NCBI GenBank assembly: GCA_026388275.1
Contig: JAPLKB010000008.1
Span: forward strand, 1 to 64,000
Reading direction: 5' to 3'
DNA: 64,000 nt
Source of the DNA: Pseudomonadota bacterium
GTDB taxonomy: Bacteria > Desulfobacterota > Syntrophorhabdia > Syntrophorhabdales > Syntrophorhabdaceae
Shown here: one piece after another, positions 37,102 to 53,350 of the stretch
How positions within the stretch are numbered: position 1 is the first letter of the stretch
How the letters are laid out: every line of letters starts with the position of its first letter
Notes under the pieces: generated by a model
What the model saw: only the letters and a program-made list of their open reading frames with translations
Database searches by the model: none
Told to the model about the DNA's origin: nothing
Made by a program: the position numbers and the translations under genes

Positions 37102-38256
37102 TTAATCTGCCTGTTTCCTCAAAAAAGTAGGAATATCGTACCTGTCGTCGTCAATATCAATCATATCGCTTTTCATCTTTATTTCTTTGTAGTCTATAGC
37201 AACTTTTTTCTTCATAAAGGGAGGCAGGTCTTCATTGTCAAAAAGCCTGCTTTTGTTGAGCATATCGCTTGTATCCTCGTCCACAACAACCTTTTCTTCA
37301 AAACCGGTGGCAATGACCGTTATCCTCATAGCACTTTCCATGGTCTCATCATAGACAAGTCCCCATATGATCTTTGCTTCATCATGAGACTGTTCCTGAA
37401 TTAGTGAGGAGGCTTCATGTACCTCATGGAGAGTCATGTCTTTATTGCCTGTTACGTTTATCAATACCCCCCTTGCTCCGTGAATTGAAATATCTTCAAG
37501 AAGCGGGCTTGATATGGCTTTCTGGGCTGCATCCCTTGCCCTGTTTTCGCCTGAGGCTTCCCCGATGCCCATTATTGCCATCCCTCGTTCGCTCATAATA
37601 GTTTTAACATCCGCAAAATCTACAACTACATGGCCTGACCCTACAATCAAATCTGATATACTTCTTACAGCATTGAGGAGCACTTCGTCTGCCTTGAAAA
37701 AAGCCTCCATGATAGTCATGTGCTTGCCGCCGATAGACAGGAGTCTCTGATTAGGTATGGTAATGAGAGAATCAACCCTGGTTTTTAACTGGATTATCCC
37801 GTTTTCTGCCTGTCTCATCCTGTCTTTGCCTTCAAAGGCAAAAGGCTTTGTTGTAATTGCTACTGTTAAGGCGCCCAGTTCTTTTGAAATCTCCGCAATT
37901 ACTGAAGATGCACCTGTTCCGGTTCCACCTCCAAGCCCGCATGTTATAAAGACCATATCAGCGCCCTTCAGGTGCTCGATAATTTTTTCCGTGTCTTCGA
38001 GCGCTGCCTTTCTGCCGACTTCCGGGTCAGCACCTGCACCGAGCCCCCTGGTTAATTTGCCTCCTATCTGTATCTTAACACCGGCTTTGCATGTGCTCAG
38101 GGACTTGACATCCGTATTGACTCCGATAAATTCAACACCTGGAACACCCGCGTCCACCATGTTGTTTAAAGCATTACATCCGCCTCCACCAACCCCTATA
38201 ACCTTTAATTTTGCTGAAAAACCGTTATCCTCATCAATATAAAAGACTCTGCTCAC
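37102..38256 (-). CDS. ftsZ: Cell division protein FtsZ
   Basis: A 384-residue tubulin homologue that forms the Z-ring. It shows KVIGVGGGGCNALNNMVDAG at the nucleotide site, the tubulin signature GGGTGTGASSVIAEISKELG, and a C-terminal conserved peptide DRYDIPTFLRKQAD that binds FtsA. The linker before it is moderate. It is the last dcw gene, 12 bases after ftsA, and ends against a heptamer repeat. Confidence 0.98.
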   Translation of the reverse strand: MSRVFYIDEDNGFSAKLKVIGVGGGGCNALNNMVDAGVPGVEFIGVNTDVKSLSTCKAGVKIQIGGKLTRGLGAGADPEVGRKAALEDTEKIIEHLKGADMVFITCGLGGGTGTGASSVIAEISKELGALTVAITTKPFAFEGKDRMRQAENGIIQLKTRVDSLITIPNQRLLSIGGKHMTIMEAFFKADEVLLNAVRSISDLIVGSGHVVVDFADVKTIMSERGMAIMGIGEASGENRARDAAQKAISSPLLEDISIHGARGVLINVTGNKDMTLHEVHEASSLIQEQSHDEAKIIWGLVYDETMESAMRITVIATGFEEKVVVDEDTSDMLNKSRLFDNEDLPPFMKKKVAIDYKEIKMKSDMIDIDDDRYDIPTFLRKQAD

Positions 38257-38268
38257 AATAACACCTCC

Positions 38269-39516
38269 TTAGAAAATTTCTTTAAACCATTCCCTCATTT
38301 TATTGAGAAGATTATTACCATTTACTAATTTCATTAATGATTGCGTACCACCATACATTTTGCGCCTTTTTATATCAGAATGTTTGAACCCGTATACCAG
38401 AAGTCCAACTCCGGTTGCATATATAGGATTATTTACCACATCAACAAGACCGCCTACGCCCACAGGAAACCCCCTTCTTGTAGGGAGGTTGAAAATATTT
38501 TCAGCAAGTTCGGGAATGCCTTCAAGATTTGCACACCCTCCGGTAATTACAACACCCGAAGCAAGCAATTTTTCAAATCCTGATTTCTTAATCTCATCAT
38601 AGATCATGGATGATATCTCTTCAACCCTCGGCTCGATTATGTCTGCCAGGGTTTTTCGCATAAGCGTTCTCGGTTTTCTACCGCCTACACTGGGAACTTC
38701 AATGGTTTCATTAGCGCCTATCATGTTCGAAAAAGCGCAGCCGTATTTCTTCTTTATCTTCTCTGCATCATCAACAGGTGTTCGTAATCCGATGGCAATG
38801 TCATTCGTAATACTATTCCCTCCAAAGGGCAGCACCGATGTATGTTTTATGCTTCCCGTTGAAAATACTGCAATATCACTTGTACCGCCTCCGATATCGA
38901 CCAGAGCAACACCTATTTCTTTTTCTTCCGGTGTGAGTACCGCCTCTGATGAAGCAAGTTGTCCGAGTATGATACTGTCCACTGTGAGCCCTGCCATACG
39001 ACAGCACTTTATGATATTCTGCGCAGAGGAGGAGCTGCCGGTAACAATATGTACCTTTACCTCAAGCCTGACCCCTGTAATCCCGAGGGGGTCACGTATT
39101 CCATCCTGGTCGTCTATGATAAATTCCTGGGGGATAACATGAAGAATTTCCCGGTCTGCCGGTATTGCAATTGCTTTTGCAGCATCAATCGCCCTTGCAA
39201 TATCATCGGCTTTCACTTCCTTTTCTTTGATTGCAACAACGCCATTACTGTTGAAGCTCTTGATGTGAGCGCCCCCTATGCCTGCCATACAGTTGTTAAT
39301 CTTTATGCCTGCCATTAATTCGGCTTCTTCTACAGCCTTTTTTATAGAAGTAATAGTGCTTTCCATATTCACAACAACGCCTTTTCTCAGGCCCGTAGAA
39401 GGGTAAGATCCTATGCCTACTATGTTTATCTTCTCCTCAGCTACTTTCCCCACAACAATGCATATCTTTGTGGTTCCAATATCAACTCCTACGAGAAGCT
39501 CTTCTTCTCTAACCAT
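38269..39516 (-). CDS. ftsA: Cell division protein FtsA
   Basis: An actin-fold protein of 415 residues that tethers FtsZ to the membrane and relays activation to the septal synthase. N-terminal EELLVGVDIGTTKICIVVG, later VALVDIGGGTSDIAVFSTGS, and the C-terminal amphipathic membrane helix LLNKMREWFKEIF are visible. It directly follows ftsQ with a two-base gap. Its presence is notable because the FtsW/FtsI targets in this cluster look inactive. Confidence 0.97.
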   Translation of the reverse strand: MVREEELLVGVDIGTTKICIVVGKVAEEKINIVGIGSYPSTGLRKGVVVNMESTITSIKKAVEEAELMAGIKINNCMAGIGGAHIKSFNSNGVVAIKEKEVKADDIARAIDAAKAIAIPADREILHVIPQEFIIDDQDGIRDPLGITGVRLEVKVHIVTGSSSSAQNIIKCCRMAGLTVDSIILGQLASSEAVLTPEEKEIGVALVDIGGGTSDIAVFSTGSIKHTSVLPFGGNSITNDIAIGLRTPVDDAEKIKKKYGCAFSNMIGANETIEVPSVGGRKPRTLMRKTLADIIEPRVEEISSMIYDEIKKSGFEKLLASGVVITGGCANLEGIPELAENIFNLPTRRGFPVGVGGLVDVVNNPIYATGVGLLVYGFKHSDIKRRKMYGGTQSLMKLVNGNNLLNKMREWFKEIF

Positions 39517-39518
39517 TT

Positions 39519-40220
39519 TTAGCCCTTCCTTTCCTGGATAATTCCACCCTTTTCAAATCTTGCATCTATACATTTAATCATGAGACCCCGTTTTTTTGCA
39601 TCTTCGAGTATAGAAACAGCTCTCTTAAGTCTTTCCTTCTGGTCTTCCTTGCCGAGCACTATCTCTACCCCGTCTTCTGCACCAAAAACCGTCACGCTGC
39701 CTTCGTCATATGCAATTTCCGATATGGCATTTCTTTTTATAATTCCTTGCGTAATCCAGCTATTGGTTTCCCTGTACAGGCTCTTTACATCCGCCTTATC
39801 CCCGGCATTAATAACAAACATATTTTTTATATCGCCTTTCGTTAACCTTTTATATGGCTCTCCACATTCATCAAGCACACTGATAACACCATTCTTATCA
39901 ACCCATAGAGCCGAGGGTATTTTTTCCTTCACGTCTATGATAATTGAAAAAGGGAAAACTCTTTTTATCCTTACTTCCTTTACAAACGGGTGCGACGTGA
40001 TGATTTCTTTCATCTTTTGAATGTCTATTCTGAAAAGGTTTCCCCGAATGAAAGGGGATATCCTGCCCATAATATCTTCATCTCCTAATTGACTTGCCCC
40101 GTTTATTCTTATATTTTTTATGAAGAACAACGGTTCATCTTTTGAAAATATGTATATTGTCGTTAGCATGGATAAAATACATATTGGCACAAGAAAAAAG
40201 ATGTACAGGGTTTTTTTCAT
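39519..40220 (-). CDS. ftsQ: Cell division protein FtsQ
   Basis: A bitopic divisome protein of 233 residues. One N-terminal membrane helix (LYIFFLVPICILSMLTTIYI) is followed by a POTRA domain (FFIKNIRINGASQLGDEDIMGRI) and a beta domain (ASYVTVFGAEDGVEIVLG-like region). It connects early and late division proteins with FtsL. It overlaps ddl by four bases. Confidence 0.9.
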   Translation of the reverse strand: MKKTLYIFFLVPICILSMLTTIYIFSKDEPLFFIKNIRINGASQLGDEDIMGRISPFIRGNLFRIDIQKMKEIITSHPFVKEVRIKRVFPFSIIIDVKEKIPSALWVDKNGVISVLDECGEPYKRLTKGDIKNMFVINAGDKADVKSLYRETNSWITQGIIKRNAISEIAYDEGSVTVFGAEDGVEIVLGKEDQKERLKRAVSILEDAKKRGLMIKCIDARFEKGGIIQERKG

Positions 40221-41125
40221 GTTTTTAAAGAAGCCCCCTTTATAATTTCGTCAACAAGATCATCAAATGACCTGCCAAGATATTCCCATGCCTTCGGCAC
40301 AAGGGAGGTTTCAGTCATGCCCGGAGAGGTATTGATATCTATTATGAGCGGGATACCTTCATCCACCATCATGTCAACCCTGGCACACCCTGAAAGCCCA
40401 AAAGCTTTATATACTGTCATCGCATAGTCCTGCGCTTTTTTTTCAACTTTTTTGCCGATCTTTGCAGGTATGATATATTCAGTCATCCCCTTGGTATATT
40501 TTGCCTCAAAATCATAAAATCCTTTTAATGGTTTTACCTGAATGACAGGCAGCACCTCATTATTAGCTATACCGACAGTTATTTCCTCCCCCTGTATATA
40601 CTTTTCTATCAGAACTTTCTTATCATATTTCAGGGCATTTTTAATAGCCCCGTTTTTCTCTCCATTTTTTCTGACAATAGATATGCCGATTGTTGAGCCT
40701 TCGTTGGCCGGCTTTACAACAAAAGGTACGGGAAACCTGACTTTGTCTTTGGCATAGCAGACTTCATAGGCAGGAGTGGGCAGTCCCATTCTATCCAACA
40801 GCATCTTCATGATCGCCTTATCCATTGCAATAGCCGACCCGAGCACACCGGAACCGGTATAGGGTATACCCATCATTTCGAGGAGACCCTGAACTGTACC
40901 ATCCTCGCCCCATCTACCGTGAAGGGCAATAAAGACAACCTGAACTTTATTTTTTTTCAAATTATCTACGATGTTATGCTCCGCATCTATCCCTACAGCG
41001 CTGTAACCGCTGCGTATAAGGCTTTGAAGAATTGCCTTTCCACTCTTCAGGGAAATCTCCCTTTCCGAGGATTTCCCTCCCATAAGAACCCCTATTTTTT
41101 TTTCTTTCATATCTCCCTTACCCAT
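40217..41125 (-). CDS. ddl: D-alanine--D-alanine ligase
   Basis: An ATP-grasp ligase of 302 residues. The N-terminal KIGVLMGGKSSEREISLKSG, central HGRWGEDGTVQGLLEMMGIPYTG, ATP-binding FVVKPANEGSTIGISIV and C-terminal IDINTSPGMTETSLVPKA are all conserved. It makes the dipeptide used by MurF, in the usual dcw place before ftsQ. Confidence 0.97.
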   Translation of the reverse strand: MGKGDMKEKKIGVLMGGKSSEREISLKSGKAILQSLIRSGYSAVGIDAEHNIVDNLKKNKVQVVFIALHGRWGEDGTVQGLLEMMGIPYTGSGVLGSAIAMDKAIMKMLLDRMGLPTPAYEVCYAKDKVRFPVPFVVKPANEGSTIGISIVRKNGEKNGAIKNALKYDKKVLIEKYIQGEEITVGIANNEVLPVIQVKPLKGFYDFEAKYTKGMTEYIIPAKIGKKVEKKAQDYAMTVYKAFGLSGCARVDMMVDEGIPLIIDINTSPGMTETSLVPKAWEYLGRSFDDLVDEIIKGASLKT

Positions 41126-41162
41126 GGCTCCGGTTCACTATAAACGGTTTAAACTATTTCTT

Positions 41163-42062
41163 TTAATTTTCATTGAATCCCCACATTTCCACTTCTTCCT
41201 CCAATGTAACCCCCAGTTTTTCAAATACCTCTTTTTTTATTCTATCAATAAGAGCTTTTATGTCATGTGCTGTAGCATGGCCAAGATTCACAATAAAATT
41301 CGTATGTTTCTCAGAAACACAGGCATCACCGATCCTAAAGCCTCGCAGCCCTGCCTTTTCAACATACTGCCATGCAGGCTCTTTGTTCACACTCTTGAAT
41401 ACAGATCCGGATGAAGGGAATTCCATTGGGTGCCTCTTTTTTCTTTCAACAAAAACATATTCCATGTCTTCCAGTATCTTCTCTCTGTCCTTTGTTTTTA
41501 ACTGGAAAACAGCATTTATCACGCACTCAGTATTTTTTACAGGCGATGACCTGTAGTTGAACGTAAGAGCCTTCTTATCAAGAGTTGTAATATTCCCCTT
41601 ATCGTTCATTACGGTTACTCCCTCCAATACATCAGAGATGGATGCTCCGAAACTCCCGGCATTCATCTTGATTCCACCACCAACAGTGCCTGGTATCCAG
41701 TATAGCTTTTCAAGACCGGCAAGCCCACGCATGGCGCTATCTTTTATAAACCCTTTTAAAGAAGCTCCTCCGGAAACCTTTACAACTGCGCCTTTTTGAT
41801 TCCTTTCGTACTGCATACACCGTATCTTTACTATCCTGATTATTGCCCCATTAAACCCCTTATCATGTACAATGACATTCGTTCCATTGCCTACAAACCT
41901 GTATTTGATTCCCTCTGCTCTCAAAATACGCATCGTCTTCAGCAGGTTAGTCTCATCTGCGGGATACACAAGGTATTTTACAGGACCACCCACTTTCATG
42001 GATGTATACCTCTTCATGGGCACATCCGTTAAAACAGTACCTTTTATTCCCCAATCTCTCAA
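41163..42062 (-). CDS. murB: UDP-N-acetylenolpyruvoylglucosamine reductase
   Basis: A 299-residue FAD-dependent reductase forming UDP-MurNAc. The motif TSMKVGGPVKYLVYP, FVGNGTNVIVHDKGFNG, YWIPGTVGGGIKMNAGSFG and HPMEFPSSGSVFKSV (catalytic serine region) indicate a type II-like MurB. The start is TTG at 42062 with AGGGAGAG upstream. The gap to murC carries heptamer repeats and a GC-rich hairpin. Confidence 0.95.
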   Translation of the reverse strand: MRDWGIKGTVLTDVPMKRYTSMKVGGPVKYLVYPADETNLLKTMRILRAEGIKYRFVGNGTNVIVHDKGFNGAIIRIVKIRCMQYERNQKGAVVKVSGGASLKGFIKDSAMRGLAGLEKLYWIPGTVGGGIKMNAGSFGASISDVLEGVTVMNDKGNITTLDKKALTFNYRSSPVKNTECVINAVFQLKTKDREKILEDMEYVFVERKKRHPMEFPSSGSVFKSVNKEPAWQYVEKAGLRGFRIGDACVSEKHTNFIVNLGHATAHDIKALIDRIKKEVFEKLGVTLEEEVEMWGFNEN

Positions 42063-42080
42063 TCTCTCCCTGCCTTTTAC

Positions 42081-42144
42081 CTTTCACTATTCACCGCGGG
42101 CAGGTTTAAAACCCGCCCCTACTGTTCACTATTCACTGTTCACT
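42081..42144. repeat. Heptamer repeats flanking a GC-rich palindrome, overlapping the murC end
   Basis: Units TTTCACT ATTCACC (42082-42095) and GTTCACT ATTCACT GTTCACT (42124-42144) bracket the inverted sequence GCGGGCAGG-TTTAAA-ACCCGCCCC (approximately 42096-42119). The second repeat tract supplies the last codons and the stop of murC. Confidence 0.75.
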
Positions 42145-43520
42145 GCTTTTCCCCATTCCGCTTTCAGCCTGTCGCATATCTTATTGATATCACCTGCGCC
42201 GAGAGTAACAACGGTATCGCCGTCCTGCGCGAGCTCCAGAATCTTTTCAGCCGCATTTTCCTTCGTCTCGACAAAAAACACATTCTTGTGCCCGCTGGCA
42301 CGTATATTTTCTGCAAAAAACATCCCGCTGATACCCTCTATTTTTTCTTCGGAAGCTGCATATATCTCAGTAACAATCAGGATATCCGCTTCATTAAATG
42401 ATGTTATAAAATCATCCATCAATGCCTTTGTCCTTGTGTATCTGTGAGGCTGAAATGCAACGACAATTCTTCCTTTACACATCTTCTTTATTGCCGATAG
42501 CGTAGCTTTAACCTCTGTGGGGTGATGCCCGTAATCGTCAATAAGCTTTATGTTCCCATCCCACTTTACTTCGAGTCTCCTCTGGACGCCGGAAAATGTT
42601 TCCAGTGCTTCCGCTATTTTGGAAAAGGGAATATCAAGCTCTATGCCAACACCGCATGCGGCAAGTGCATTGACAACGTTATGGATGCCTGGCATGGCAA
42701 GGTTTATGACGCCCAGTTCATATCCTTTATAGATTACTCTGAAGTTTGTACCTGTTTCATTGTACGTAACACCATCTGCTCTAAGGTCTGCCTGTTTTGA
42801 AAGTCCATAGGTCATATACCTTCTCTTTAATTGAGGGATAAGAGTCTGGATATTCGCATTGTCAATGCATATGATGTCAAGCCCATAGAAAGGTACTTTA
42901 TTGAGAAAGGTTAAGAATGCAGCCTTTATGTCATTGATATCCTTATAGAAATCAAGGTGCTCCAGATCTATGTTCGTTGTCACGGCAATTGTCGGAAAAA
43001 GAAGGAGAAATGTCCCGTCACTTTCATCTGCTTCTGCCACCAGGAATTTACTGCCGCCGAGTTTTGCATTACTGCCGAGACTGTTCAATTTACCGCCAAT
43101 GACGCATGTCGGGTCCAAACCTGCACGTCCGAGGATCGTTGAGACTATTGAAGTTGTGGTTGTTTTACCGTGGGAACCTGCTACGGCAATACTATATTTC
43201 ATCCTCATGAGCTCTGCAAGCATTTCCGCCCTCTGTATTACCGGGACAAAAATCTCTTTTGCCTTCTGTATCTCAGGGTTATCAGGCTTTACCGCCGACG
43301 AAATAACGACTACATCGGCATCCTCTACATTTTCTTTCTTATGGCCATAAAATATCTTTGCGCCAAGCTGCTCAAGCCTTTCGGTAGTATCGGTTTTCCT
43401 GATATCCGAACCTGTAACAGTAAAATCGAGATTTAACAGTACCTCTGCAATACCGCTCATCCCTATACCGCCGATGCCGACAAAATGTATTTTCTCTATC
43501 TTGTGAAGAACCATATTCAA
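42129..43520 (-). CDS. murC: UDP-N-acetylmuramate--L-alanine ligase
   Basis: A 463-residue Mur ligase. Signature regions: IHFVGIGGIGMSGIAEVLLN at the N-terminus, ATP loop VAGSHGKTTTTSIVSTILG, EADESDGTFLLL and DDYGHHPTEVKATL. It adds L-Ala to UDP-MurNAc. The final residues AVNSE and the stop codon are encoded by a heptamer repeat tract (AGTGAAC AGTGAAT AG), so the C-terminus seems rewritten by repeat invasion without loss of the core. Confidence 0.97.
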   Translation of the reverse strand: MNMVLHKIEKIHFVGIGGIGMSGIAEVLLNLDFTVTGSDIRKTDTTERLEQLGAKIFYGHKKENVEDADVVVISSAVKPDNPEIQKAKEIFVPVIQRAEMLAELMRMKYSIAVAGSHGKTTTTSIVSTILGRAGLDPTCVIGGKLNSLGSNAKLGGSKFLVAEADESDGTFLLLFPTIAVTTNIDLEHLDFYKDINDIKAAFLTFLNKVPFYGLDIICIDNANIQTLIPQLKRRYMTYGLSKQADLRADGVTYNETGTNFRVIYKGYELGVINLAMPGIHNVVNALAACGVGIELDIPFSKIAEALETFSGVQRRLEVKWDGNIKLIDDYGHHPTEVKATLSAIKKMCKGRIVVAFQPHRYTRTKALMDDFITSFNEADILIVTEIYAASEEKIEGISGMFFAENIRASGHKNVFFVETKENAAEKILELAQDGDTVVTLGAGDINKICDRLKAEWGKAVNSE

Positions 43521-43620
43521 CCCCTGTCTTCAGTTATCTGTCTGTTCACGGTTCACATATTTGAACTTTAAAGTATTCAGATTTTCTCCTTTTCCGTTAG
43601 CTGTAAAATGCGAAATATTT

Positions 43621-44694
43621 TCATTTCCCGGTTACCTCTTCCTGTATCTTTGAAATAATCCTCTCCTGTGCATCATCGACAAACAGTCTGCCGATATTTT
43701 CACCCATCTGCTTAAGCAATGCAGGCTCATTCATGAGATGCTTTATAACACCATAGAGCCTTTCTCCGCTTGCCTCATCATTGCCGACAATATAACCTCC
43801 GCCGACATTCTCCACGTGAGAAGCATTTTTCCATTGGTGCTGTCCTGCAGAGAACGGATAAGGTATAAGTATCGCCGCTTTTCTGAAATATGCAAGCTCG
43901 AAGATTGTTGAAGCTCCCGCCCTTGATATAACTACGTCTGAACGGTTGTAGTAATTAGCCATGTTGTCTGTAAAAGGAAAAACCTCGTGTTTTATATCTG
44001 TTTTTTCATATGCTTCTTTTATGCGATCATAGTCTTCCGCCCCTGTCTGGTGATAAATAACTGCATTTTTGTAGCCTTCCAGGTAAGGAAGTAAGGAAAG
44101 TACTGATTCATTGATGCTTTTTGCGCCCCTGCTCCCTCCGAATACAAAGATTCCGAATGTTTCATCGCTTTTTGTTTCTCTTGGAACCTTGACAGCATGT
44201 CTTACGGGGTTACCTGTATAATATACACCTTTGCTTTTAAACAATTCCCCTGATTCCTGAAAACTGATGAATGTCGCCTTTGCGTATTTTGAAAGCACCT
44301 TGTTTGCAAGTCCGGGCTCAGCATTCTGCTCATGAAGAAAGACCGGTACGCCGAGGATGGCACCTGCAAAAATTATTGGTACGGATGTAAAACCACCCAT
44401 CCCGAGAATTGCATCCGGTTTCTCCCTTTTTATAATCCTCATGCAGCTGCAGATACCCTTCAGGATATAAAAGAGTGTGGCAGCCTTGTACAATGCACTT
44501 CTGCCCTGAAACTGCCGTGCCTGAACGAAAAGGAGTCTGAACCCATACTGGGGGATAATTTTACTCTCAAGCCCAAAAGTTGTCCCGATGAATACCACCT
44601 GGTTATCCTGCCCCTGCGCAATAAACGTCTCAGCCACGGCAATACCGGGAAAGATATGTCCTCCTGTCCCGCCTGCCGATATGATGAGCTTCAT
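43621..44694 (-). CDS. murG: UDP-GlcNAc:lipid I N-acetylglucosaminyltransferase
   Basis: A GT-B transferase of 357 residues making lipid II from lipid I. The first glycine loop SAGGTGGHIFPGIAVAETF, LGMGGFTSVPIIFAG, LHEQNAEPGLANKVLSKYA, the second glycine loop FVFGGSRGAKSIN, and RAGASTIFELAYFRKAAILIPYP are intact. It overlaps the FtsW-like gene by four bases. The 100-base gap before murC carries two heptamers (GTTCACG GTTCACA at 43543-43556). Confidence 0.97.
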   Translation of the reverse strand: MKLIISAGGTGGHIFPGIAVAETFIAQGQDNQVVFIGTTFGLESKIIPQYGFRLLFVQARQFQGRSALYKAATLFYILKGICSCMRIIKREKPDAILGMGGFTSVPIIFAGAILGVPVFLHEQNAEPGLANKVLSKYAKATFISFQESGELFKSKGVYYTGNPVRHAVKVPRETKSDETFGIFVFGGSRGAKSINESVLSLLPYLEGYKNAVIYHQTGAEDYDRIKEAYEKTDIKHEVFPFTDNMANYYNRSDVVISRAGASTIFELAYFRKAAILIPYPFSAGQHQWKNASHVENVGGGYIVGNDEASGERLYGVIKHLMNEPALLKQMGENIGRLFVDDAQERIISKIQEEVTGK

Positions 44695-45482
44695 ATATAC
44701 TCCTTTTCCGCTTTGAGCATTATTCCGATAAGCGGCGTCAATACAAGAAGGGCAGCCACTGGCTGATACAGAAGCCCGGCTGAAAGTCTTAGCCCCAGCA
44801 CCATAAAAATATCCGTTGCAATATAGATAGAACCGAAAAAGATCATGAGCTTGATAAAATTGCTCTTTTTTGTAAATCCTACAAAAGCCGTGATCAAAAA
44901 TACAAAAGAAGTTGCTAAAAGCAAATATTTTTCCACATCGTTGATCTTTACCCCGCCTCCAAGTATGTTTACTTCCTTGTTAAAGATGATCAGTGCTATG
45001 GTAATAGCCAGTGTATATCCTGCTATGAAGGGAATCAGACGGTTTTTACCGATTACGAAAAGAAAAAACACGGCAGCTATGGACATGGGAATGATAAAAA
45101 GCGCTTTCCCGATCATAAAGAGGTTGAAGGCAGAGGAAAGAAATAACACTGAAAGGGCTGCAATTTCTTTAATCAAATTTTTTCCTTTTTCATCAATTGT
45201 AATTAAATAAAAGGTTAATCCGTAAAAAGAAACAAATATAATAAGGGCATCAAGGGGATATTGGATACTCATCTTCGGATATACGAAGAAAAAGACTGTC
45301 ACTGCAAGAGCAAAACATATAAAGGGATATTTCATCGCAATGATATGCTTTGCCGGGATGAGGTATATAAGGTAGGCAGCTCCGAGGCCAAGACAGATCA
45401 TCAGAACTTTGACAACATTAAGCTCACGGAAGAAGCCGTATAGTAAAATGGAGGCTGTCAGATAAACAAATACTTTTTTCAA
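44691..45482 (-). CDS. Degenerate FtsW-like (SEDS-derived) membrane protein
   Basis: A 263-residue polytopic protein in the exact murD-to-murG position of ftsW, with about ten hydrophobic segments. The C-terminal part IATDIFMVLGLRLSAGLLYQ, then PVAALLVLTPLIGIML, lines up with the FtsW end (INIGMVLGLLPTTGLPLP then FISYGGSSLL), but the PFISYGGSS motif is gone. Canonical FtsW is about 370-410 residues. The large extracellular loop 4 carrying the catalytic aspartate is reduced to roughly 15 residues (NKEVNILGGGVKIND). The TTG start overlaps the murD stop, with GGTGGA upstream. Homology is inferred from position and pattern, not from a search. Confidence 0.6.
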   Translation of the reverse strand: MKKVFVYLTASILLYGFFRELNVVKVLMICLGLGAAYLIYLIPAKHIIAMKYPFICFALAVTVFFFVYPKMSIQYPLDALIIFVSFYGLTFYLITIDEKGKNLIKEIAALSVLFLSSAFNLFMIGKALFIIPMSIAAVFFLFVIGKNRLIPFIAGYTLAITIALIIFNKEVNILGGGVKINDVEKYLLLATSFVFLITAFVGFTKKSNFIKLMIFFGSIYIATDIFMVLGLRLSAGLLYQPVAALLVLTPLIGIMLKAEKEYI

Positions 45483-46804
45483 AGTGATTCCACCATTTCC
45501 TTAAACATATTCCCCCTCTCTTTATAGTCTTTAAACATATCAAAGCTGCTGCACATTGGAGAAAAGAGGACTGCATCACCATCACCGGCAATTTCATATG
45601 CCTTCTTTATTGCTGCGTTCAAATTATCTTCAATGTAGGTCTTTGTATATCCTCCCAGTTCTTCCGATATCCGCTGACTCGCCTCTCCTATGAGTATCAT
45701 CGCCTTTACCTTTTTCATGAGGTCACCGATGACTTTATAGCTCCCGCCCTTATCTCTTCCCCCTGCAATAAGCACCACGTTTTTTTCTATACTTTCCAGG
45801 GCTCTTTTTGTAGCATCTACATTTGTAGCCTTTGAATCATTGTAGAACTTCACTCCCTTCAATTCCCTCACAGGCTCAACCCTGTGGGGCAGCCCCTTGA
45901 AGTTTTTCAGTACCTCTCCGACAACGTCCTGCCCTATGCCGTATATATGGGAGACAAGAAGCGCTGAGAGAATGTTTTCCGTATTATGAATACCCAAAAG
46001 CGGGGATATATCTCTTCTGTACACGGTCTCTCTTCCCATGAGCCTGACAAACATAAAGTCGTTGAAGAAAAAGGCTCCTTCCTTTAATATTGTATTGCTT
46101 TTAAAAAATAGGGTCTTTGCCTTTATCTCCCTCTCGATGGAGAGTTCTTTATTCAATACAGCCCAGTTTGTTTCCTGCTGATTTTCAAAGATCCTGTACT
46201 TCGCAGCCTTGTATTCATCATAACTTCTGTATCTGTCGAGATGATCTTCGGTAATATTCAAAAGAACAGACGTATCCGGGCGAAAGGTCTCTATAGTTTC
46301 AAGCTGAAAACTGCTTATTTCAAGTATGACATATTTTGCCTTTTTCCCTTCCATCACATAGTTTATCAGGGGATTGCCGATATTGCCGCCTACAAAGACA
46401 GACCCGCATGCTTTATCAAATATCTCTCCGATAAGGGAGGTTACGGTGGTCTTCCCGTTTGTTCCTGTAATAGCAATAATAGGTTCATTTACAAATGAAG
46501 ACGCAAGTTCAATTTCACCGATAATTTTTGCCCCGCTTTTGCGTGCTTCCTGAAGATAAGGCATCTCGCTATCCACTCCCGGGCTTATGACTATCAGCGG
46601 GTAACCAAGGAAATCCTCTCCGTTATAGCTCCCGAAACAACCTTCAAATTCAATGCCCTGGAGCTCTTTTAGCGCCCCTTTAAGTTCTTCTTCTGTTTTT
46701 GTATCAATAACGGTAATCTTTTTTCCCATGCTGCTTAAAAATTTTGCTGTTGCAATCCCTGTTTTACCAAGGCCAACAATAAGTATCTTATCCGGAAGGT
46801 TCAT
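45479..46804 (-). CDS. murD: UDP-N-acetylmuramoylalanine--D-glutamate ligase
   Basis: A Mur ligase of 441 residues adding D-Glu. It begins ILIVGLGKTGIATAKFLSS, has the ATP loop AITGTNGKTTVTSLIGEIF, GGNIGNPLINYV, LEISSFQLE (typical of MurD), and the C-terminal NDSKATNVDATKRALESI. It is followed by the FtsW-like gene with overlapping stop and start codons. Confidence 0.97.
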   Translation of the reverse strand: MNLPDKILIVGLGKTGIATAKFLSSMGKKITVIDTKTEEELKGALKELQGIEFEGCFGSYNGEDFLGYPLIVISPGVDSEMPYLQEARKSGAKIIGEIELASSFVNEPIIAITGTNGKTTVTSLIGEIFDKACGSVFVGGNIGNPLINYVMEGKKAKYVILEISSFQLETIETFRPDTSVLLNITEDHLDRYRSYDEYKAAKYRIFENQQETNWAVLNKELSIEREIKAKTLFFKSNTILKEGAFFFNDFMFVRLMGRETVYRRDISPLLGIHNTENILSALLVSHIYGIGQDVVGEVLKNFKGLPHRVEPVRELKGVKFYNDSKATNVDATKRALESIEKNVVLIAGGRDKGGSYKVIGDLMKKVKAMILIGEASQRISEELGGYTKTYIEDNLNAAIKKAYEIAGDGDAVLFSPMCSSFDMFKDYKERGNMFKEMVESL

Positions 46805-46886
46805 ATCATCATTCCTATCGTTATTGAGTACCGGGTAAACACCTGCAAATATTTAAACAGTGAACTGTTGGCCATGAACATCTTTC

Positions 46887-47963
46887 TTACCTCAGTTTTA
46901 GTGTACTCAAAGCCAGAAGCGCCAGTATGAAAGAAACAATCCAGAAACGCACTACGATCTTCCCCTCATTCCACCCCTTCAATTCATAGTGGTGGTGTAT
47001 GGGCGCCATTCTGAAAACCCGCTTTCCCCTCCATTTAAAGGAAAGCACCTGGATGATTACCGATAATGTTTCTATCACAAATATCCCGCCAGCAATGACA
47101 AGTAAAATCTCCTGTTTTATGATAATGGCAATGGCAGCAAGAGATGCCCCCAGCGACAAAGAGCCTGTATCGCCCATAAATAATTCTGCAGGATAGGTGT
47201 TATACCAGAGGAAACCTATGCCTGCACCAAGCATGGCCCCGCATAGTATTGTAAGCTCTCCGGCGCCTTTCACATAGAATATTTGCAGATACTGGGCAAA
47301 CTTTACATTGCCGGCAAGGTAGGCAAAGAGCATAAAAGTCAAACATACCGTTAAGACAGGCCCGATTGCCAGTCCGTCAAGTCCGTCTGTAAGATTTACG
47401 CCGTTTGAGGCGCCGACGATTATAACCGTGCAGAGAAAGATGTAAAATATCCCGAGATCAGGCGTAATATTTTTAAAGAAAGGCACTGTAAGTCCTGTGA
47501 TAAGGCCGCCCTTCATATACAAAAGCACACCTACTACAAGAGAAAAGAATATCTGCAAAATAAGCTTTGTTCTGCCTGTTACGCCTTTGCCGCGCTCATT
47601 TCTAAGCTTTTTTATATCATCCATGAAGCCGATGCCGCCAAAAGACAGAAGCACAAAGGTTACTATCCAGACATAAGAATTACTCAAATCAGACCATAAA
47701 AGCGTGGGGATAATAGTCGATACAAGGATGACAAATCCACCCATGGTAGGGGTTCCTGTTTTCTCCGTATGCCTTTCAGGCACATCCTCTCTCTTGTCGC
47801 TTTTTATCTTCCACTTGTTAAACTTTCTGATCATCAGTGGAGTAAGGAAAAAGCTTATAACAAGGGCCGAAAGAACCGCGAGGACCGTTCGGAAAGTAAT
47901 ATATCTGAATACGTTAAAGACTGAAAACTTTGTGTGGAGCGTATATAGCAGATGATACAACAT
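46887..47963 (-). CDS. mraY: Phospho-N-acetylmuramoyl-pentapeptide transferase
   Basis: A 358-residue, ten-helix inner-membrane enzyme making lipid I. Conserved loops: TPTMGGFVILVS, FMDDIKKLRNERGKGVTGRTK, SNGVNLTDGLDGLAIGP (with the catalytic aspartates) and MAPIHHHYELKGWNEGKIVVRFW. Its start abuts the murF stop. Confidence 0.98.
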   Translation of the reverse strand: MLYHLLYTLHTKFSVFNVFRYITFRTVLAVLSALVISFFLTPLMIRKFNKWKIKSDKREDVPERHTEKTGTPTMGGFVILVSTIIPTLLWSDLSNSYVWIVTFVLLSFGGIGFMDDIKKLRNERGKGVTGRTKLILQIFFSLVVGVLLYMKGGLITGLTVPFFKNITPDLGIFYIFLCTVIIVGASNGVNLTDGLDGLAIGPVLTVCLTFMLFAYLAGNVKFAQYLQIFYVKGAGELTILCGAMLGAGIGFLWYNTYPAELFMGDTGSLSLGASLAAIAIIIKQEILLVIAGGIFVIETLSVIIQVLSFKWRGKRVFRMAPIHHHYELKGWNEGKIVVRFWIVSFILALLALSTLKLR

Positions 47964-49318
47964 TATTTAAGCGCCTCCACTATAATTTCCATCTTTGCCG
48001 CTCTTGAGCCCTTTACAAGCACCGTATCCCCTTTTTTAAGGTTTTTTGCTGCATAATCGATGAGTTGCTCCTTATTTTCAAAAAAAATGGCTCTCCCATC
48101 ATTCAGTTCCTCGAGGGTTTCCTTCATATACTCTCCGGTTATCAGAATCATGGGTATGCCGGTATCATTCAAAAACATGCCCAGCTTCCTGTGGTAAAAG
48201 GATGTTTCTTCTCCAAGTTCTTTCATGTCTCCAAGTATGACCATCTTCTTTCCGTTACATGGCAGGTCAAGCAAAGTTTTTATTGCCCATTCCATTGAAG
48301 AGGGGTTTGCATTATAAGTATCGTCTAAAATGATATAGCCTTTATCGGACTCAACAGGCTTGAACCTCATCATGTATGGATCAAATGTTTCAACACCTTC
48401 CGATATAAGTTTGCTGTCTATTCCGATACTGCATGCAATAGTCGAGGCAGCAAGGATATTATAGAGATTGTGTCCTCCAAGAAGAGTTGTCCTTGTCCTG
48501 ATTTCGACCCCGGGGCATTTGAGGACAATACGGGAACCCTTCCAGCCCAGGTCCTCTTCGACGGAAAGGGTAAAATCGGCGTTATTGATTATACCATAAG
48601 TAGTCAATACATGTTGGTTGTCCTTATAACGGATCAAAATGTTCGGGTCATCTGCATTCACGATGACTTTCCCACCCTCTTTTGTATTGTAAAAAAGGCT
48701 CAGTTTTTCTTCAAGCACACCATCAAGATTCAAAAGACCCTCAAGGTGAGAAGGGTTTACATTTGTGATCAACGATACATCCGGTTCGGTCAATCGGGCA
48801 AGCTGTTTTATCTCTCCCTTGTTGTTCGTTCCAAGTTCAAAAATACAAAACTGTGGGTCACCTTCTATGGAAAGGATGCTTTTTGATATGCCTATTGCAT
48901 TATTGTAGTTCTTCTCATTGTAATGAACAGAAAAACCTTTTTTTATAATATTAACCAATATTTCCTTTGTTGTTGTTTTGCCGTTGCTCCCTGTTATGGC
49001 GATGATACTTGACCTTGTGAGCCCTTTTTTATAATATGCAAGATCGAGGAGCGCCTGCATAGCATCATCAACGAGAATAACCGTGCCTCCGGCATGCAGT
49101 GTATCCTGGCGACCTTTCTCACAGATGGATCCTGCATGAGACCTGTCATAGGCGGCCCTTATAAATTGATGTCCGTCAAAGTTTTTACCGGTTAAAGGTA
49201 TGAACAGCTCATTATCCATTATGGTTCTTGAGTCTGTAGATATTCCGGAAAATGATGATTTTCCGATTCTCAGCAACTTACCTTTTACCGCTTTGACAAC
49301 TTCTTCAACATGCCACAT
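47963..49318 (-). CDS. murF: UDP-MurNAc-tripeptide--D-Ala-D-Ala ligase
   Basis: A 451-residue Mur ligase completing the pentapeptide. It contains FSGISTDSRTIMDNELFIPL, the ATP loop AITGSNGKTTTKEILVNI, NYNNAIGISKSIL, FELGTNNKGEIKQLA, and DDTYNANPSSMEWAI, the last typical of MurF. It overlaps murE by 14 bases. Confidence 0.97.
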   Translation of the reverse strand: MWHVEEVVKAVKGKLLRIGKSSFSGISTDSRTIMDNELFIPLTGKNFDGHQFIRAAYDRSHAGSICEKGRQDTLHAGGTVILVDDAMQALLDLAYYKKGLTRSSIIAITGSNGKTTTKEILVNIIKKGFSVHYNEKNYNNAIGISKSILSIEGDPQFCIFELGTNNKGEIKQLARLTEPDVSLITNVNPSHLEGLLNLDGVLEEKLSLFYNTKEGGKVIVNADDPNILIRYKDNQHVLTTYGIINNADFTLSVEEDLGWKGSRIVLKCPGVEIRTRTTLLGGHNLYNILAASTIACSIGIDSKLISEGVETFDPYMMRFKPVESDKGYIILDDTYNANPSSMEWAIKTLLDLPCNGKKMVILGDMKELGEETSFYHRKLGMFLNDTGIPMILITGEYMKETLEELNDGRAIFFENKEQLIDYAAKNLKKGDTVLVKGSRAAKMEIIVEALK

Positions 49319-50756
49319 CTAAAAACTCCTCGACAACTTCTCTATCACTGAAATGAAAAACCTTGTCGCCTATAATTTGATAGTCTTCGTGCCCTTTTCC
49401 TGCAATTAAAAGGATATCATCCTGTCTTATTATTTTTATCCCTTCAAAGATTGCATCCTTTCTGTTTTCCACAATCCTGCATGTATTACCGATGAACCCT
49501 TTTTTAACGTCTTCTATAATCTTCATGGGGCTTTCACTTCTCGGGTTATCTGATGTAATTATTGTATAGTCTGCAAGTTGTGAGGCTATATTTCCCATTA
49601 CAGGCCTTTTTTCTCTGTCCCTGTCGCCCCCGCATCCGAAAATTACAGTAAGTTTCCCTTTTTTTAACGAATTGAGCATTTCAAGAACCTTTTTCAATGC
49701 ATCCGGCGTGTGAGCATAATCTATGAAGATATAGGCACCTTTTCCGTTCTTTACCCTTTCAAGTCTGCCGGGAACGCCTTCAAGACCTTCAAGCCCTTTT
49801 TTTATCTGTTCATGTGGCATGTTTACAGCATAACCGGCAAGCGATGCAGCCAGTATATTCGATACATTAAAAACACCTATCAACGGGGATACAATTGACA
49901 AAGGCTTTCCCATCAATTTCATCTCAAGCTGCAAACCCCCTATGTCTTCTCGGAAGGTGGTGATATATGCATCCGATGTTTTTTTCAGGCTGTATAAAAG
50001 TGTCCTGATAGGTGGACCAGGCATAAATCCATCTGCGTTGGGATCGTCTGCATTTATTATGGCGTATTTCTCCTTCTTTGAGCTCTTTTTCAGAAAATGT
50101 GAGAAAAAAAGATTTTTTGCTGCTTTATAATTTTCGAAAGTACCGTGGTAATCAAGGTGGTCGTGGGTAAGGTTCGTAAAAATTGCCGTATCGAAATCCA
50201 CCCCTTCAACCCTTTTCTGATCAAGAGCGTGCGATGAAACTTCCATCACCACATATTCCATATTGGCAAGTTTCATATCATGGAGAAGGCTATGCAGTTC
50301 CTCAGCACCTGGCGTAGTGTTAAATGCCTTAAAGGTACGACCGTCATAACGGTATGATATGGTTCCTATAAGGCCTGCTTTTTTATTGGCAGTATTCAGC
50401 ATGGACTCGATGAGATAGGTTGTTGTGGTTTTCCCGTTTGTGCCGGTAATGCCTATTATATATAGTTTCTTTGACGGGAAGCCGTAAAATTTCGATGCAA
50501 TATTCCCCAGAAGGCCCTTCGGGTCATCTGTTTTTATGGAACAGGGAAAGTTTGTTTTTACCTCTCCGTCAGATACAATAACGCTTGCACCCCTGTCTGC
50601 TGCATCGTTTATAAACCTTTCGCTTTTCTCTGTTGCGAAAAAAATGTAACCTTCCTTTGCTTTTCTTGAATCCTTGGTAATACCTGTAATCTCGATGTCG
50701 GTATTGCCGATAACCTCGATTGCAGGTATATTATTTATTAACTCATCAAGCTTCAT
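49305..50756 (-). CDS. murE: UDP-MurNAc-L-Ala-D-Glu:meso-diaminopimelate ligase
   Basis: A Mur ligase of 483 residues. It has ITGITKDSRKAKEGYIFFA, GITGTNGKTTTTYLIESML, GLIGTISYRYDGR, NTTPGAEELHSLLHDM, MEVSSHALDQKRVEGV and TSDNPRSESPMKIIEDV. The DNPR motif is the diaminopimelate-type specificity signature, predicting meso-DAP peptidoglycan, as in Gram-negative bacteria. Confidence 0.97.
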   Translation of the reverse strand: MKLDELINNIPAIEVIGNTDIEITGITKDSRKAKEGYIFFATEKSERFINDAADRGASVIVSDGEVKTNFPCSIKTDDPKGLLGNIASKFYGFPSKKLYIIGITGTNGKTTTTYLIESMLNTANKKAGLIGTISYRYDGRTFKAFNTTPGAEELHSLLHDMKLANMEYVVMEVSSHALDQKRVEGVDFDTAIFTNLTHDHLDYHGTFENYKAAKNLFFSHFLKKSSKKEKYAIINADDPNADGFMPGPPIRTLLYSLKKTSDAYITTFREDIGGLQLEMKLMGKPLSIVSPLIGVFNVSNILAASLAGYAVNMPHEQIKKGLEGLEGVPGRLERVKNGKGAYIFIDYAHTPDALKKVLEMLNSLKKGKLTVIFGCGGDRDREKRPVMGNIASQLADYTIITSDNPRSESPMKIIEDVKKGFIGNTCRIVENRKDAIFEGIKIIRQDDILLIAGKGHEDYQIIGDKVFHFSDREVVEEFLDVAC

Positions 50757-50775
50757 CCGGGCTTATCCTCTTAAT

Positions 50776-51732
50776 TCAACGTTTATCCGGTAATGTGACA
50801 GGGAAACCGTTTTGTTGCTTTTGCGTTTTCCCGTAAATGATGCATTCGGTTTCCCCGTTTATTCTTTCAAAGGGCTTGGGAAATTGCTCGGCAACAATGC
50901 CGCTCCCGTGTATCTTTATTTTTGCGGTATTGATTGCAAGTTTTTCAAGGGCGACTTTAATTGGAAGGTTCATCAGGTTCGGCATCAGCCGTTCTTCATT
51001 CTCTGCATTATGGTGTTTCTTAGCGTTATTCTTCATCGCTGTAAACTCAAAATGCCCATTATTCCCGATAATCACCGTCCCGTTAACGGTAAAGGGGAAT
51101 AGATTGCAATACTCATTTGAAACAGTGTCGCTATAGAGCGATAGCAACTTTTTCTTTTCCAGGACATAACCTCTGCCCAGCATGATTTCTTCTGCAGAAA
51201 GTCCTTCCTTTACCATAATCCCTTCCTGTTTCAGGAATAACATCATATGTTTTATGCCTATTGTTTTTGAGATATTTTTTAAGCCCTCTACGTCCTTGTC
51301 ATATAATATATCAATGGGCTTTTTCCATTGGGCAGCATTCCCGTTGTCTTTACCTGCCGGGATCATGCCCTCCTTTTCTATCAGCCCTTCCTTAATGGCA
51401 AAGCAAACTAAGGGGAGCGACATAAAGAACGACGGTTCAATAAAATCATTTCCAGGCACAGGTGGAGACACCTTTTTGTTGACAGCAGCTTGTTCAGTCT
51501 GTGTTTCTCGTACCGGTTGTATTGCCTGAGCTGTTGAGACCGATACTATTTTCGGTATAATCTTTCTTTCATTTTCCTGCATATATATACTCATATTTGC
51601 CGGTACTATTTTCTGATCAGTGGAAACTCTCTGAAAACTTATTTTTTCCGGCAGATGCATGATTATTGACACAAACATCAAAAAAATAAACATACAAACA
51701 AAAAAGGCTCTTCTATTAGCCTTTTTATTCAT
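50776..51732 (-). CDS. Degenerate FtsI-like protein with PASTA domain, active-site motifs lost
   Basis: A 318-residue protein in the ftsI position between ftsL and murE. It has a single N-terminal membrane helix (about residues 8-27), a long linker, a reduced transpeptidase-like core (about 97-232), and a C-terminal PASTA domain (about 249-301, LMPNLMNLPIKVALEKLAIN). In the core, FIEPSFFMSLPLVCFAIKEG matches the serine helix of PBP3 enzymes (EPGSxxKxxTALAALE). The SxxK lysine is Met, the SxN equivalent is DKD (residues 145-147), and no KTG is present. FtsI is normally about 580-650 residues. It appears non-catalytic; homology is inferred by eye and position. Confidence 0.65.
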   Translation of the reverse strand: MNKKANRRAFFVCMFIFLMFVSIIMHLPEKISFQRVSTDQKIVPANMSIYMQENERKIIPKIVSVSTAQAIQPVRETQTEQAAVNKKVSPPVPGNDFIEPSFFMSLPLVCFAIKEGLIEKEGMIPAGKDNGNAAQWKKPIDILYDKDVEGLKNISKTIGIKHMMLFLKQEGIMVKEGLSAEEIMLGRGYVLEKKKLLSLYSDTVSNEYCNLFPFTVNGTVIIGNNGHFEFTAMKNNAKKHHNAENEERLMPNLMNLPIKVALEKLAINTAKIKIHGSGIVAEQFPKPFERINGETECIIYGKTQKQQNGFPVTLPDKR

Positions 51733-52031
51733 CTTAATACCAGGACCTCTTCTTCTTTTGCTTTCTTAAGACCGAGTTTTTTTGCCTGCAGTTCGAGAAA
51801 TCTTGCCCGTGTTGTCGCTAAGTATTCTATTTTTAAATTTTCATTAATTTGAGCAACCTCTCTTTCCTTCTGCAATATTTCCAACAAATCTTCCCTGACA
51901 TGGCTGTATACACCCTTTATAAAAAAAGATAAAAAAATGAAACCGATAAAACAAAGAATTCCCATAAAGATTGACGGGAAATTCCTGGTTTCTCTGTCTC
52001 TTTTTACTGAAACATACACCCCATTGTTCAC
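51729..52031 (-). CDS. ftsL: Cell division protein FtsL-like
   Basis: A 100-residue bitopic protein: basic cytoplasmic tail, one membrane helix (FPSIFMGILCFIGFIFLSFF), then a heptad-rich coiled coil (REDLLEILQKEREVAQINEN...). Size, topology and position between rsmH and the ftsI slot identify FtsL, the partner of FtsQ/FtsB in activating FtsW-FtsI. The start is GTG and the stop overlaps the FtsI-like start. Confidence 0.8.
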   Translation of the reverse strand: MNNGVYVSVKRDRETRNFPSIFMGILCFIGFIFLSFFIKGVYSHVREDLLEILQKEREVAQINENLKIEYLATTRARFLELQAKKLGLKKAKEEEVLVLR

Positions 52032-52037
52032 TCTGCC

Positions 52038-52910
52038 CTAACCCCCTTTTTTTTCTGCTATCCTCAATTTTGAACTTCTTGAGTTTGGATTCTCCTTTAC
52101 TTCAACTCTTTCCGGCCTTATAGGTTTTTTTGTTATTATATTGAGGACAGGTGAATCTTTGAATGCTACCTTTATAATCCTGTCCTCAAGGGAATGAAAA
52201 GAAATAACTCCTATCCTGCCTTCAGGGGAGAGCATATCTATGGCTGCTTCTATGCCTGTTTGCAGGCCTCTTAACTCATCGTTGACCTCAATCCTGATCG
52301 CTTGAAAGGTCTTTGTTGCAGGATGAATCCTCCCTGTTCTTCTTTTTGCTTTAAGCACGACATTGCCAAGCTCCTTTGCTGTAGATATCGACTTTTTCTT
52401 TCTTGTCTCTACAATCATTTTTGCAATAGCCGGGGCCCGGTAATCCTCTCCGTAGTCTCTGATTATTCGCAGCAGTTCTTTATAGTCGTAGCTATTCACA
52501 ACATCATATGCTGTTAACACCAACCTGTTGTCCATTCTCATGTCAAGAAAGCTGTCGTCATTAAAGCTAAATCCTCTTTTCCCTGTTATCTGGAAAGTTG
52601 AAAGACCGAGATCAAAAAGGATGCCGTCACAGGATGCAATACCTTCAGAAGTTAATATTTCCCTCAGATCCCTGAAGTTTCCCCTGATCAATCTTGCCCT
52701 TCCTTCAAATTCATATAGTCTTTCCTTGGCAATCTTCAAAATGTCTTCATCAGCATCCAGACCGATAAGTTTTACATTTTTGTACCTCTCAAGGATATCA
52801 GACGCGTGGCCTCCCCCTCCCACTGTTGCGTCAATAAAAACATTCGTTTTTTCACTTACAAGGTTTTTTATTACTTCTTCAAGAAGAACAGGTGTATGTA
52901 CGACATTCAT
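52038..52910 (-). CDS. rsmH: 16S rRNA m4C1402 methyltransferase
   Basis: RsmH (MraW), about 290 residues. HTPVLLEEVIKNLVSEK begins the protein; the SAM loop FIDATVGGGGHASDILER and DGILFDLGLSTFQI follow, with RKKKSISTAKELGNVV and HPATKTFQAIRIEVNDEL later. The ATG at 52910 shares bases with the mraZ stop (TGATG), so the TTG one codon earlier is not needed. Confidence 0.97.
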   Translation of the reverse strand: MNVVHTPVLLEEVIKNLVSEKTNVFIDATVGGGGHASDILERYKNVKLIGLDADEDILKIAKERLYEFEGRARLIRGNFRDLREILTSEGIASCDGILFDLGLSTFQITGKRGFSFNDDSFLDMRMDNRLVLTAYDVVNSYDYKELLRIIRDYGEDYRAPAIAKMIVETRKKKSISTAKELGNVVLKAKRRTGRIHPATKTFQAIRIEVNDELRGLQTGIEAAIDMLSPEGRIGVISFHSLEDRIIKVAFKDSPVLNIITKKPIRPERVEVKENPNSRSSKLRIAEKKGG

Positions 52911-53350
52911 CAAAGACCGAGTTCCGAAACAATATCGGCTACTTGATCAGGGTCGGAAGTTGCTTTTTTAACCAGTTCTTCCCATCTTTCCTGTGCCCAT
53001 ATTTCAATTTTGTTGCCCACACCAATGATTACGACATTCTTTATGATGGCTGCGTCAGCCTTAAGTGATTGCGGTATGAGAACCCTGCCGAGCTTGTCTA
53101 TAAGGCATTCGGTAACACCGGAATAAAAGTATCTTAAAAATGTCCGCGCTTCTTTTTTTATAGCTCCATAATTTGATATCTTTGCTTGTATACTCATCCA
53201 TTCCTGGTACGGATAACCAACAATACAGCCGTCAAGATTCGTGACCATCAGCCTCATATCGTGATTTGCCGACAGTATCTCCCTGAATTTTGCAGGAATA
53301 CTGATTCTGCTTTTATCATCAATAGCGTATTCAAATCTTCCGGCGAACAT
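52910..53350 (-). CDS. mraZ: Transcriptional regulator MraZ
   Basis: A 146-residue protein with two AbrB-like SpoVT domains: FAGRFEYAIDDKSRISIPAKFRE at the N-terminus and CLIDKLGRVLIPQSLKADA in the second. It represses the dcw operon by binding repeated GTGG-type boxes; three such boxes at 10-bp spacing precede the gene. It opens the dcw cluster. Confidence 0.97.
   Translation of the reverse strand: MFAGRFEYAIDDKSRISIPAKFREILSANHDMRLMVTNLDGCIVGYPYQEWMSIQAKISNYGAIKKEARTFLRYFYSGVTECLIDKLGRVLIPQSLKADAAIIKNVVIIGVGNKIEIWAQERWEELVKKATSDPDQVADIVSELGL

Follow-up and report, generated by a model that had tools for sequence, protein, structure and literature searches.

We analysed a window of 64,000 nucleotides (NCBI GenBank assembly GCA_026388275.1, contig JAPLKB010000008.1, positions 1 to 64,000 of the forward strand) from a bacterium of the order Syntrophorhabdales. 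Its division and cell wall (dcw) cluster encodes a septal synthase pair, FtsW and FtsI, that appears to be dead. FtsW belongs to the SEDS (shape, elongation, division and sporulation) family and FtsI is a class B penicillin-binding protein (PBP); on sequence motifs and predicted structures, both would be vertically inherited pseudoenzymes of the order that have lost polymerase and transpeptidase activity. The explanation that we favour, and consider reasonably probable as a whole, is that the dead pair is kept as a scaffold of the divisome and that the septum is the work of a synthase encoded outside the cluster. The cluster runs on the minus strand from 53350 to 37102 in canonical gene order. 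Gene names follow NCBIfam for mraZ, rsmH, the mur genes, mraY and ddl and Pfam for ftsQ, ftsA and ftsZ, with the best expect value (E) in brackets.

52910..53350, minus strand: mraZ, 146 amino acids (NCBIfam TIGR00242, E 1.3e-36)
52038..52913, minus strand: rsmH, 291 amino acids (TIGR00006, E 1.8e-90)
51729..52031, minus strand: ftsL-like, 100 amino acids (position; weak DivIC match, E 0.0095, under the cut-off)
50776..51732, minus strand: ftsI slot, putative pseudo-FtsI, 318 amino acids (position, predicted fold, profile comparison)
49305..50756, minus strand: murE (NF001126, E 4.6e-170)
47963..49318, minus strand: murF (TIGR01143, E 4.7e-111)
46887..47963, minus strand: mraY (TIGR00445, E 2.4e-125)
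45479..46804, minus strand: murD (TIGR01087, E 1.8e-127)
44691..45482, minus strand: ftsW slot, putative pseudo-FtsW, 263 amino acids (position, predicted fold, profile comparison)
43621..44694, minus strand: murG (TIGR01133, E 2.5e-93)
42129..43520, minus strand: murC (TIGR01082, E 1.5e-162)
41163..42062, minus strand: murB (NF010480, E 3.6e-92)
40217..41125, minus strand: ddl (NF002378, E 1.7e-114)
39519..40220, minus strand: ftsQ (POTRA_1, E 4.2e-12; FtsQ_DivIB_C, E 3.5e-9)
38269..39516, minus strand: ftsA (PF14450, E 2.3e-52)
37102..38256, minus strand: ftsZ (PF00091, E 4.6e-45; PF12327, E 1.7e-35)

An earlier note on this DNA had described the lipid II and Z-ring genes, together with FtsQ, FtsL and FtsA, as present, and the FtsW-FtsI pair as jointly inactivated. 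Every gene it named was found, ftsL by its place and a weak match, and the proteins of the two synthase slots matched no Pfam or NCBIfam family at E<=1. The claim of joint inactivation is borne out by the absence of motifs from 34 FtsW-slot and 31 FtsI-slot proteins of the order and by folds that look derived from SEDS and transpeptidase enzymes.

The AlphaFold model of the FtsW-slot protein, built from the order's own alignment (24 rows; mean predicted local distance difference test score (pLDDT) 86.8), has the SEDS fold. It aligns with T. thermophilus RodA (6bas) at Z 19.7 over 251 residues (root-mean-square deviation (rmsd) 3.4) and with P. aeruginosa FtsW (8bh1_A) at Z 19.2 over 254 residues (rmsd 3.5), the best non-SEDS fold match being WaaL at Z 12.9 and the next reaching 8.3. 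Foldseek places four SEDS chains at ranks 1-4 (E 6.6e-3 to 1.5e-2), and the profile of the protein is nearer FtsW (E 0.0026) than RodA (E 0.26). SEDS enzymes carry catalytic motifs of the QPSE, PDLGT, HTDF and FxSYGGSS types, and their catalytic aspartate sits in a loop that is shortened here: of the ten long helices in the model, numbers 7 and 8 are linked by 14 residues (168-181), at the place where the SEDS catalytic loop belongs. Motifs of the QPSE, PDLGT and FxSYGG types occur in none of the 34 extracted FtsW-slot proteins (0/34 each) and the HTDF type in one, as a chance match (SSDL), whereas the four types were found in 12, 7, 13 and 12 of the 13 dcw FtsW proteins used for comparison. 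The SEDS family PF01098 does not list the protein among the matches of its own genome. Judged by its predicted structure, the FtsW-slot protein is a SEDS derivative without catalytic loop or motifs.

The FtsI-slot protein was modelled in the same way (26 rows; mean pLDDT 77.8). The model comprises a membrane helix (3-24), a low-confidence linker (about 30-89), a truncated transpeptidase-like fold (about 94-240) and a PASTA-like tail (about 247-302). Residues 94-240 align at Z 11.2-11.8 with PBP2, PBP2x, PBP3, PBP4/5 and OXA enzymes; the roughly 145 aligned residues are strewn across about 259 of the target, so that a large part of the domain, more than 100 residues, is missing. Foldseek gives 25 matches at E<=0.001, the best at 8.1e-5. 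The transpeptidase motifs SxxK, SxN and KTG do not occur in order in any of the 31 FtsI-slot proteins of the order, by a strict or a loose pattern (KTG 0/31). A pedestal (PBP dimerisation) domain was not recognised: the protein has no Pfam match at E<=1, and the stretch concerned is linker with pLDDT <50. For the tail, profile comparison finds the PASTA region of dcw FtsI (590-654) at E 5.4e-13, the PASTA part of the profile also finds matches within the FtsI frames of relatives, and PF03793 (PASTA) itself leaves the protein unmatched at E<=1. The remainder of the profile is nearer FtsI (E 0.0011) than PBP2 (E 0.2). The 31 extracted frames measure 248-345 amino acids, and many genome matches run across a stop codon. 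As modelled, the protein is a truncated transpeptidase derivative.

The pair thus resembles the FtsW-FtsI septal synthase in its dcw position, SEDS fold, FtsI membrane helix, PASTA tail and remnant of the transpeptidase fold, and differs from it by lacking catalytic motifs, catalytic loop and recognisable pedestal and by its size, 263 and 318 amino acids against about 370 for FtsW and about 650 for FtsI in intact clusters of the phylum. One could suppose that the two proteins still catalyse through unrecognised residues, and K105, N120 and D224 are indeed invariant in the 24-row FtsW-slot alignment. A loop of only 14 residues for the catalytic aspartate and an FtsI remnant without the three transpeptidase motifs and more than 100 residues of its domain make this hardly credible.

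The order, sampled with 46 genomes from 19 genera and three families, belongs to a phylum that we take to be Desulfobacterota in GTDB. A profile scan with the FtsI-slot protein of named genomes returned 19 loci. FtsI-slot homologues were found in 46/46 genomes and FtsW-slot homologues in 45/46 and in all 19 genera, the sole miss being G010, which is 66% complete. In the four mapped clusters of families f2 and f3 the same dcw gene order is seen, with both slots in their original places. The 34 measured FtsW-slot frames span 257-265 amino acids; that of G041 (G041:C61:2885-3600) is split by stops, which may reflect a sequencing error or local decay. A pairwise comparison of 21 genes between the host and its nearest genome, G023, gave ratios of nonsynonymous to synonymous substitution rates (dN/dS) of 0.172 and 0.199 for the FtsW-slot and FtsI-slot pair, well below 1 and indicative of constraint. 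No full-motif dcw pair, which the earlier note would have read as a sign of an assembly error here, was found in any relative within the order; assembly error, pseudogene and contamination are rejected by the conservation across 46 genomes together with the dN/dS values.

Which synthases does the host retain? Its genome (3.53 Mb, 71 contigs, 99.51% complete, 0.62% contaminated) has a single PF01098 match, an intact-looking RodA (329.5 bits) encoded in mreB-mreC-mreD-mrdA-rodA beside an equally intact-looking PBP2 (PF00905, 234.4 bits, plus dimerisation domain). This agrees with the proposal in the earlier note that another SEDS/class B PBP pair is kept. The genome search that it had suggested for a canonical ftsW found none: an intact copy elsewhere is ruled out by the lone PF01098 match, and neither a catalytic FtsW nor a catalytic FtsI was found in the genome. 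The elongasome synthase RodA-PBP2 is the only intact SEDS-class B PBP pair in this genome; the profiles of the dead pair are nearer FtsW and FtsI than RodA and PBP2. Two of the remaining PF00905 matches are class A PBPs that combine a GT51 with a transpeptidase domain, and the other is a protein of 308 amino acids; a third GT51 match is a frame of 267 amino acids. By eye, the 308-amino-acid transpeptidase-fold protein (L003:1204-2130, G000:C33) resembles a class D (OXA) beta-lactamase.

A similar inventory holds across the order. One SEDS match was found in 43/46 genomes and two in 3/46, and 23 RodA sequences fall on the RodA side of the SEDS tree with support 100. Each SEDS motif is present in 29/30 RodA sequences, the thirtieth having been wrongly extracted; these counts depend on the pattern, a strict one missing 7/30 that a looser one accepts. 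For mrdA, the three transpeptidase motifs are kept in 29/30 loci examined, with the exception close to the end of a contig, and 43/46 genomes have one mrdA-type transpeptidase match (E<=3.2e-64); of the others, G006 and G039 carry fragments at the ends of contigs, and no match of this type was seen in G014, which is 74% complete. GT51 domains occur in 46/46 genomes, in G010 only as a fragment. In G002 (97% complete), one GT51 match was found alongside two to the transpeptidase domain, and its septal synthase should therefore be either one class A PBP or RodA-PBP2. A second, divergent SEDS protein of 458-470 amino acids, followed by a class B PBP, was seen in 2/46 genomes (L100, G030:C51; L101, G032:C91), and among the matches listed only G030 and G032 have a further class B PBP, beside this extra SEDS. 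In G032 the gene next to it looks by eye like one for a Ser/Thr kinase, in G030 like one for a sigma factor. As a hidden FtsW this protein was rejected, having its own adjoining class B PBP outside the dcw cluster. The second SEDS match of G045 (L099, G045:C54) was also discarded: it is an FtsW fragment at a contig end, joined to murG unlike in the order's cluster, and probably represents contamination.

SEDS proteins were counted across the phylum in 297 genomes of 85% completeness or more; roughly three quarters of these have two or more, and a number of families have one. With the pseudo-FtsW profile, the family was found only in the 13 sampled Syntrophorhabdales members; outside them, the matches were weak and partial and confined to three genomes (E 1e-4 to 7e-3). 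For reading the slots, 110 dcw loci were chosen by hand and not at random, namely genomes with PASTA matches, genomes with listed FtsW coordinates and 80 further ones, of which 41 have at least two SEDS proteins and 39 have one or none. L158, L165 and L190 proved to be duplicates or off-target, which left 107 genomes read; 98 of these are on the tree described below, after leaving out L191, L198 and, for few columns, L229, L232, L278-L281 and L283. Both slots are readable in 84/98. The other 14 comprise G052, eight genomes with FtsW in which FtsI was not found, G105 without FtsW in which FtsI was not found, and four in which the FtsW slot was not reached (FtsI dead in one, intact in three). 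FtsW absence was scored between murD and murG and FtsI state by a strict motif pattern, under which G069 is dead although a loose pattern calls it intact; the FtsI profile was made from these same phylum sequences.

Outside the order, wherever both slots are readable, all 50 genomes with FtsW have a catalytic FtsI and all 34 without FtsW have a dead one. The parallel loss noted in the window thus recurs, with 84/84 genomes concordant once G052 is set aside, whose FtsW is present and whose FtsI is frameshifted and ends early after the first two motifs. The 34 dead-FtsI genomes span 13 families (f14, f17, f27, f28, f53, f59, f62, f63, f64, f74, f76, f81 and f89; L147-L166, L223-L275). In many of them FtsI has almost its whole length and retains the pedestal and PASTA domains. 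Against the Pfam transpeptidase domain, 12 dead FtsI proteins score from nothing to 102 bits, compared with 281-305 for five intact ones; nine of the 12 still lie above the family cut-off and would thus be labelled FtsI by a plain domain search. The dimerisation domain is over its cut-off in 9/12 and the PASTA domain in 8/12. That RodA might serve a working dcw FtsI in the FtsW-less families is rejected for the genomes read, FtsI being dead there, and since this holds in every readable genome without dcw FtsW, a RodA-FtsI hybrid septal synthase seems unlikely from the motifs. In five FtsW-less genomes that were fetched a SEDS gene adjoins mrdA, in the mreB operon in f74 (two), f89 and f28 and at a contig end in f17.

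Several further observations concern these clusters. G056 (f14, L267) has no dcw FtsW and two SEDS proteins, neither in the fetched dcw stretch, and G152 of the same genus (f14, L271; 99% complete) has no PF01098 match. The opposite state, in which the lone SEDS match is the dcw FtsW and RodA was not found, occurs in 11/107 genomes (G060, G061, G064, G090, G108, G117, G139, G190, G202, G261 and G325), with FtsI intact in 8/8 where it was found; incomplete assemblies may explain some of them. In L149, L150, L154, L157, L159 and L160 (families f14 and f76), murE and murF are apparently fused into one frame of 985-1048 amino acids.

The concordance of the 84 genomes counts relatives, not events. 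Six dcw proteins were concatenated (111 rows, 2409 columns) for a FastTree tree rooted at its midpoint, on which the FtsW-loss label requires three changes, compared with 35.3 for shuffled labels. They fall on one branch holding 12 dead-FtsI families and f47, in which FtsI was not found, on Syntrophorhabdales and on family f17. Independent pairs number only three, for which the sign test gives p 0.25 and significance is unreachable.

Syntrophorhabdales bacteria are not known to form spores. Division without a canonical FtsW/FtsI pair has been described in C. difficile, where the class A enzyme PBP1 drives vegetative septation and knock-down of rodA or pbp2 causes elongation-type defects (PMC10693644). 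Syntrophorhabdales would share with C. difficile and other Clostridia (PMC10693644) a RodA-PBP2 pair beside mreBCD, a class A PBP and dcw synthases that do not serve vegetative division; the dcw pair of C. difficile, however, is the active sporulation pair SpoVE/SpoVD, whereas that of Syntrophorhabdales is dead and conserved. This precedent bears on the alternative that RodA-PBP2, as the sole intact SEDS/class B PBP pair, builds both the lateral and the septal wall, with the dead pair recruiting it to the Z ring. Such a double role is in keeping with its standing as the only intact pair of the host, with the mrdA motifs kept in 29/30 loci of the order and with the adjacency of rodA and mrdA in the five FtsW-less genomes of f74, f89, f17 and f28; the elongation-type knock-down phenotypes and the septation by PBP1 in C. 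difficile (PMC10693644) speak against it, and we regard it as possible but the less probable course. Class A PBPs are an equal or better candidate, for which GT51 in 46/46 genomes shows possibility only and C. difficile supplies the precedent.

The gene ftsW is also reported absent from the dcw cluster of Thermodesulfobacteria (PMC8871954) and from four Desulfobulbaceae genomes, in which FtsI is treated as working (PMC7873302). The lack of a catalytic FtsW in the dcw cluster is common to these groups and ours (PMC8871954, PMC7873302), and the large FtsW-less branch plausibly contains both. The differences are that FtsW remains as a pseudoenzyme in Syntrophorhabdales and that readable FtsW-less genomes have a dead dcw FtsI. 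No report of a dead FtsI in Thermodesulfobacteria or Desulfobulbaceae, nor of a dead FtsW-FtsI pair, was found in our searches, which covered open-licence PMC papers. What is new here, within the known theme of division without canonical FtsW/FtsI, is that both enzymes of the pair are kept as what appear to be dead bodies.

The proposed mechanism would run as follows. The dead pair, still placed among ftsL, ftsQ and ftsA, which suggests a scaffold role, would stay as a non-catalytic part of the divisome and probably still touch FtsQ, FtsL, FtsA and its own partner through the SEDS body and the FtsI membrane helix. Septal peptidoglycan would come from a non-dcw synthase, and the coupled loss of FtsW and FtsI catalysis suggests that this replacement supplies both activities. 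Class A PBPs docked on the scaffold appear somewhat likelier in this role than RodA-PBP2, and a mixture is possible. In its most general form, we put at slightly better than even the idea of a wholly non-catalytic core SEDS-class B PBP pair that acts as a pure signalling scaffold and allows a foreign synthase to work at the Z ring, its catalysis lost as a unit three times across the phylum on our tree, with the body of FtsI usually kept. Pseudoenzymes often turn into regulators, and with SEDS body and FtsI helix retained the pair might instead be a brake or timer, a rival of RodA or PBP2 for binding partners that offers no docking platform to a synthase. The original dcw places kept in the four f2/f3 clusters fit a divisome role better, and we think a brake or timer unlikely.

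Several points weigh against the explanation that we favour. The evidence presented here fits class A PBPs and RodA-PBP2 alike. Homology of both slot proteins by sequence comparison is weak (hhalign probability 8-20%): a PDB sequence search gave no match with the FtsW-slot profile and only two chance-like matches with that of the FtsI slot, and no Foldseek hit of the FtsW-slot model reached E<=0.001, the best having 6.6e-3. The case for the ancestry of both proteins rests on fold alignment and gene position. In solved complexes FtsI meets FtsQLB through the pedestal domain, and as none is recognisable in the FtsI-slot protein, the contacts of the scaffold may differ. Finally, the dN/dS values of the pair are the two highest of the 21 genes (0.043-0.154 for the other 14 dcw genes and 0.025-0.154 for all others). 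This, along with strong sequence drift and the broken FtsW-slot frame of G041, which may be a sequencing error, is what one would expect of functionless relics in decay. Steady frames of 257-265 amino acids (n=34), homologues in 19/19 genera and dN/dS of 0.17 and 0.20 argue otherwise, making mere decay very improbable.

If the pair is indeed a retained scaffold, keeping the dead shells of both enzymes would mean that its structural and enzymatic roles are separable. The two proteins would be natural scaffold-only versions with which to ask how FtsQLB and FtsA pass on their signal. They also raise the question of what makes the septal wall across a large group of anaerobic bacteria, which can be tested in cultured relatives.

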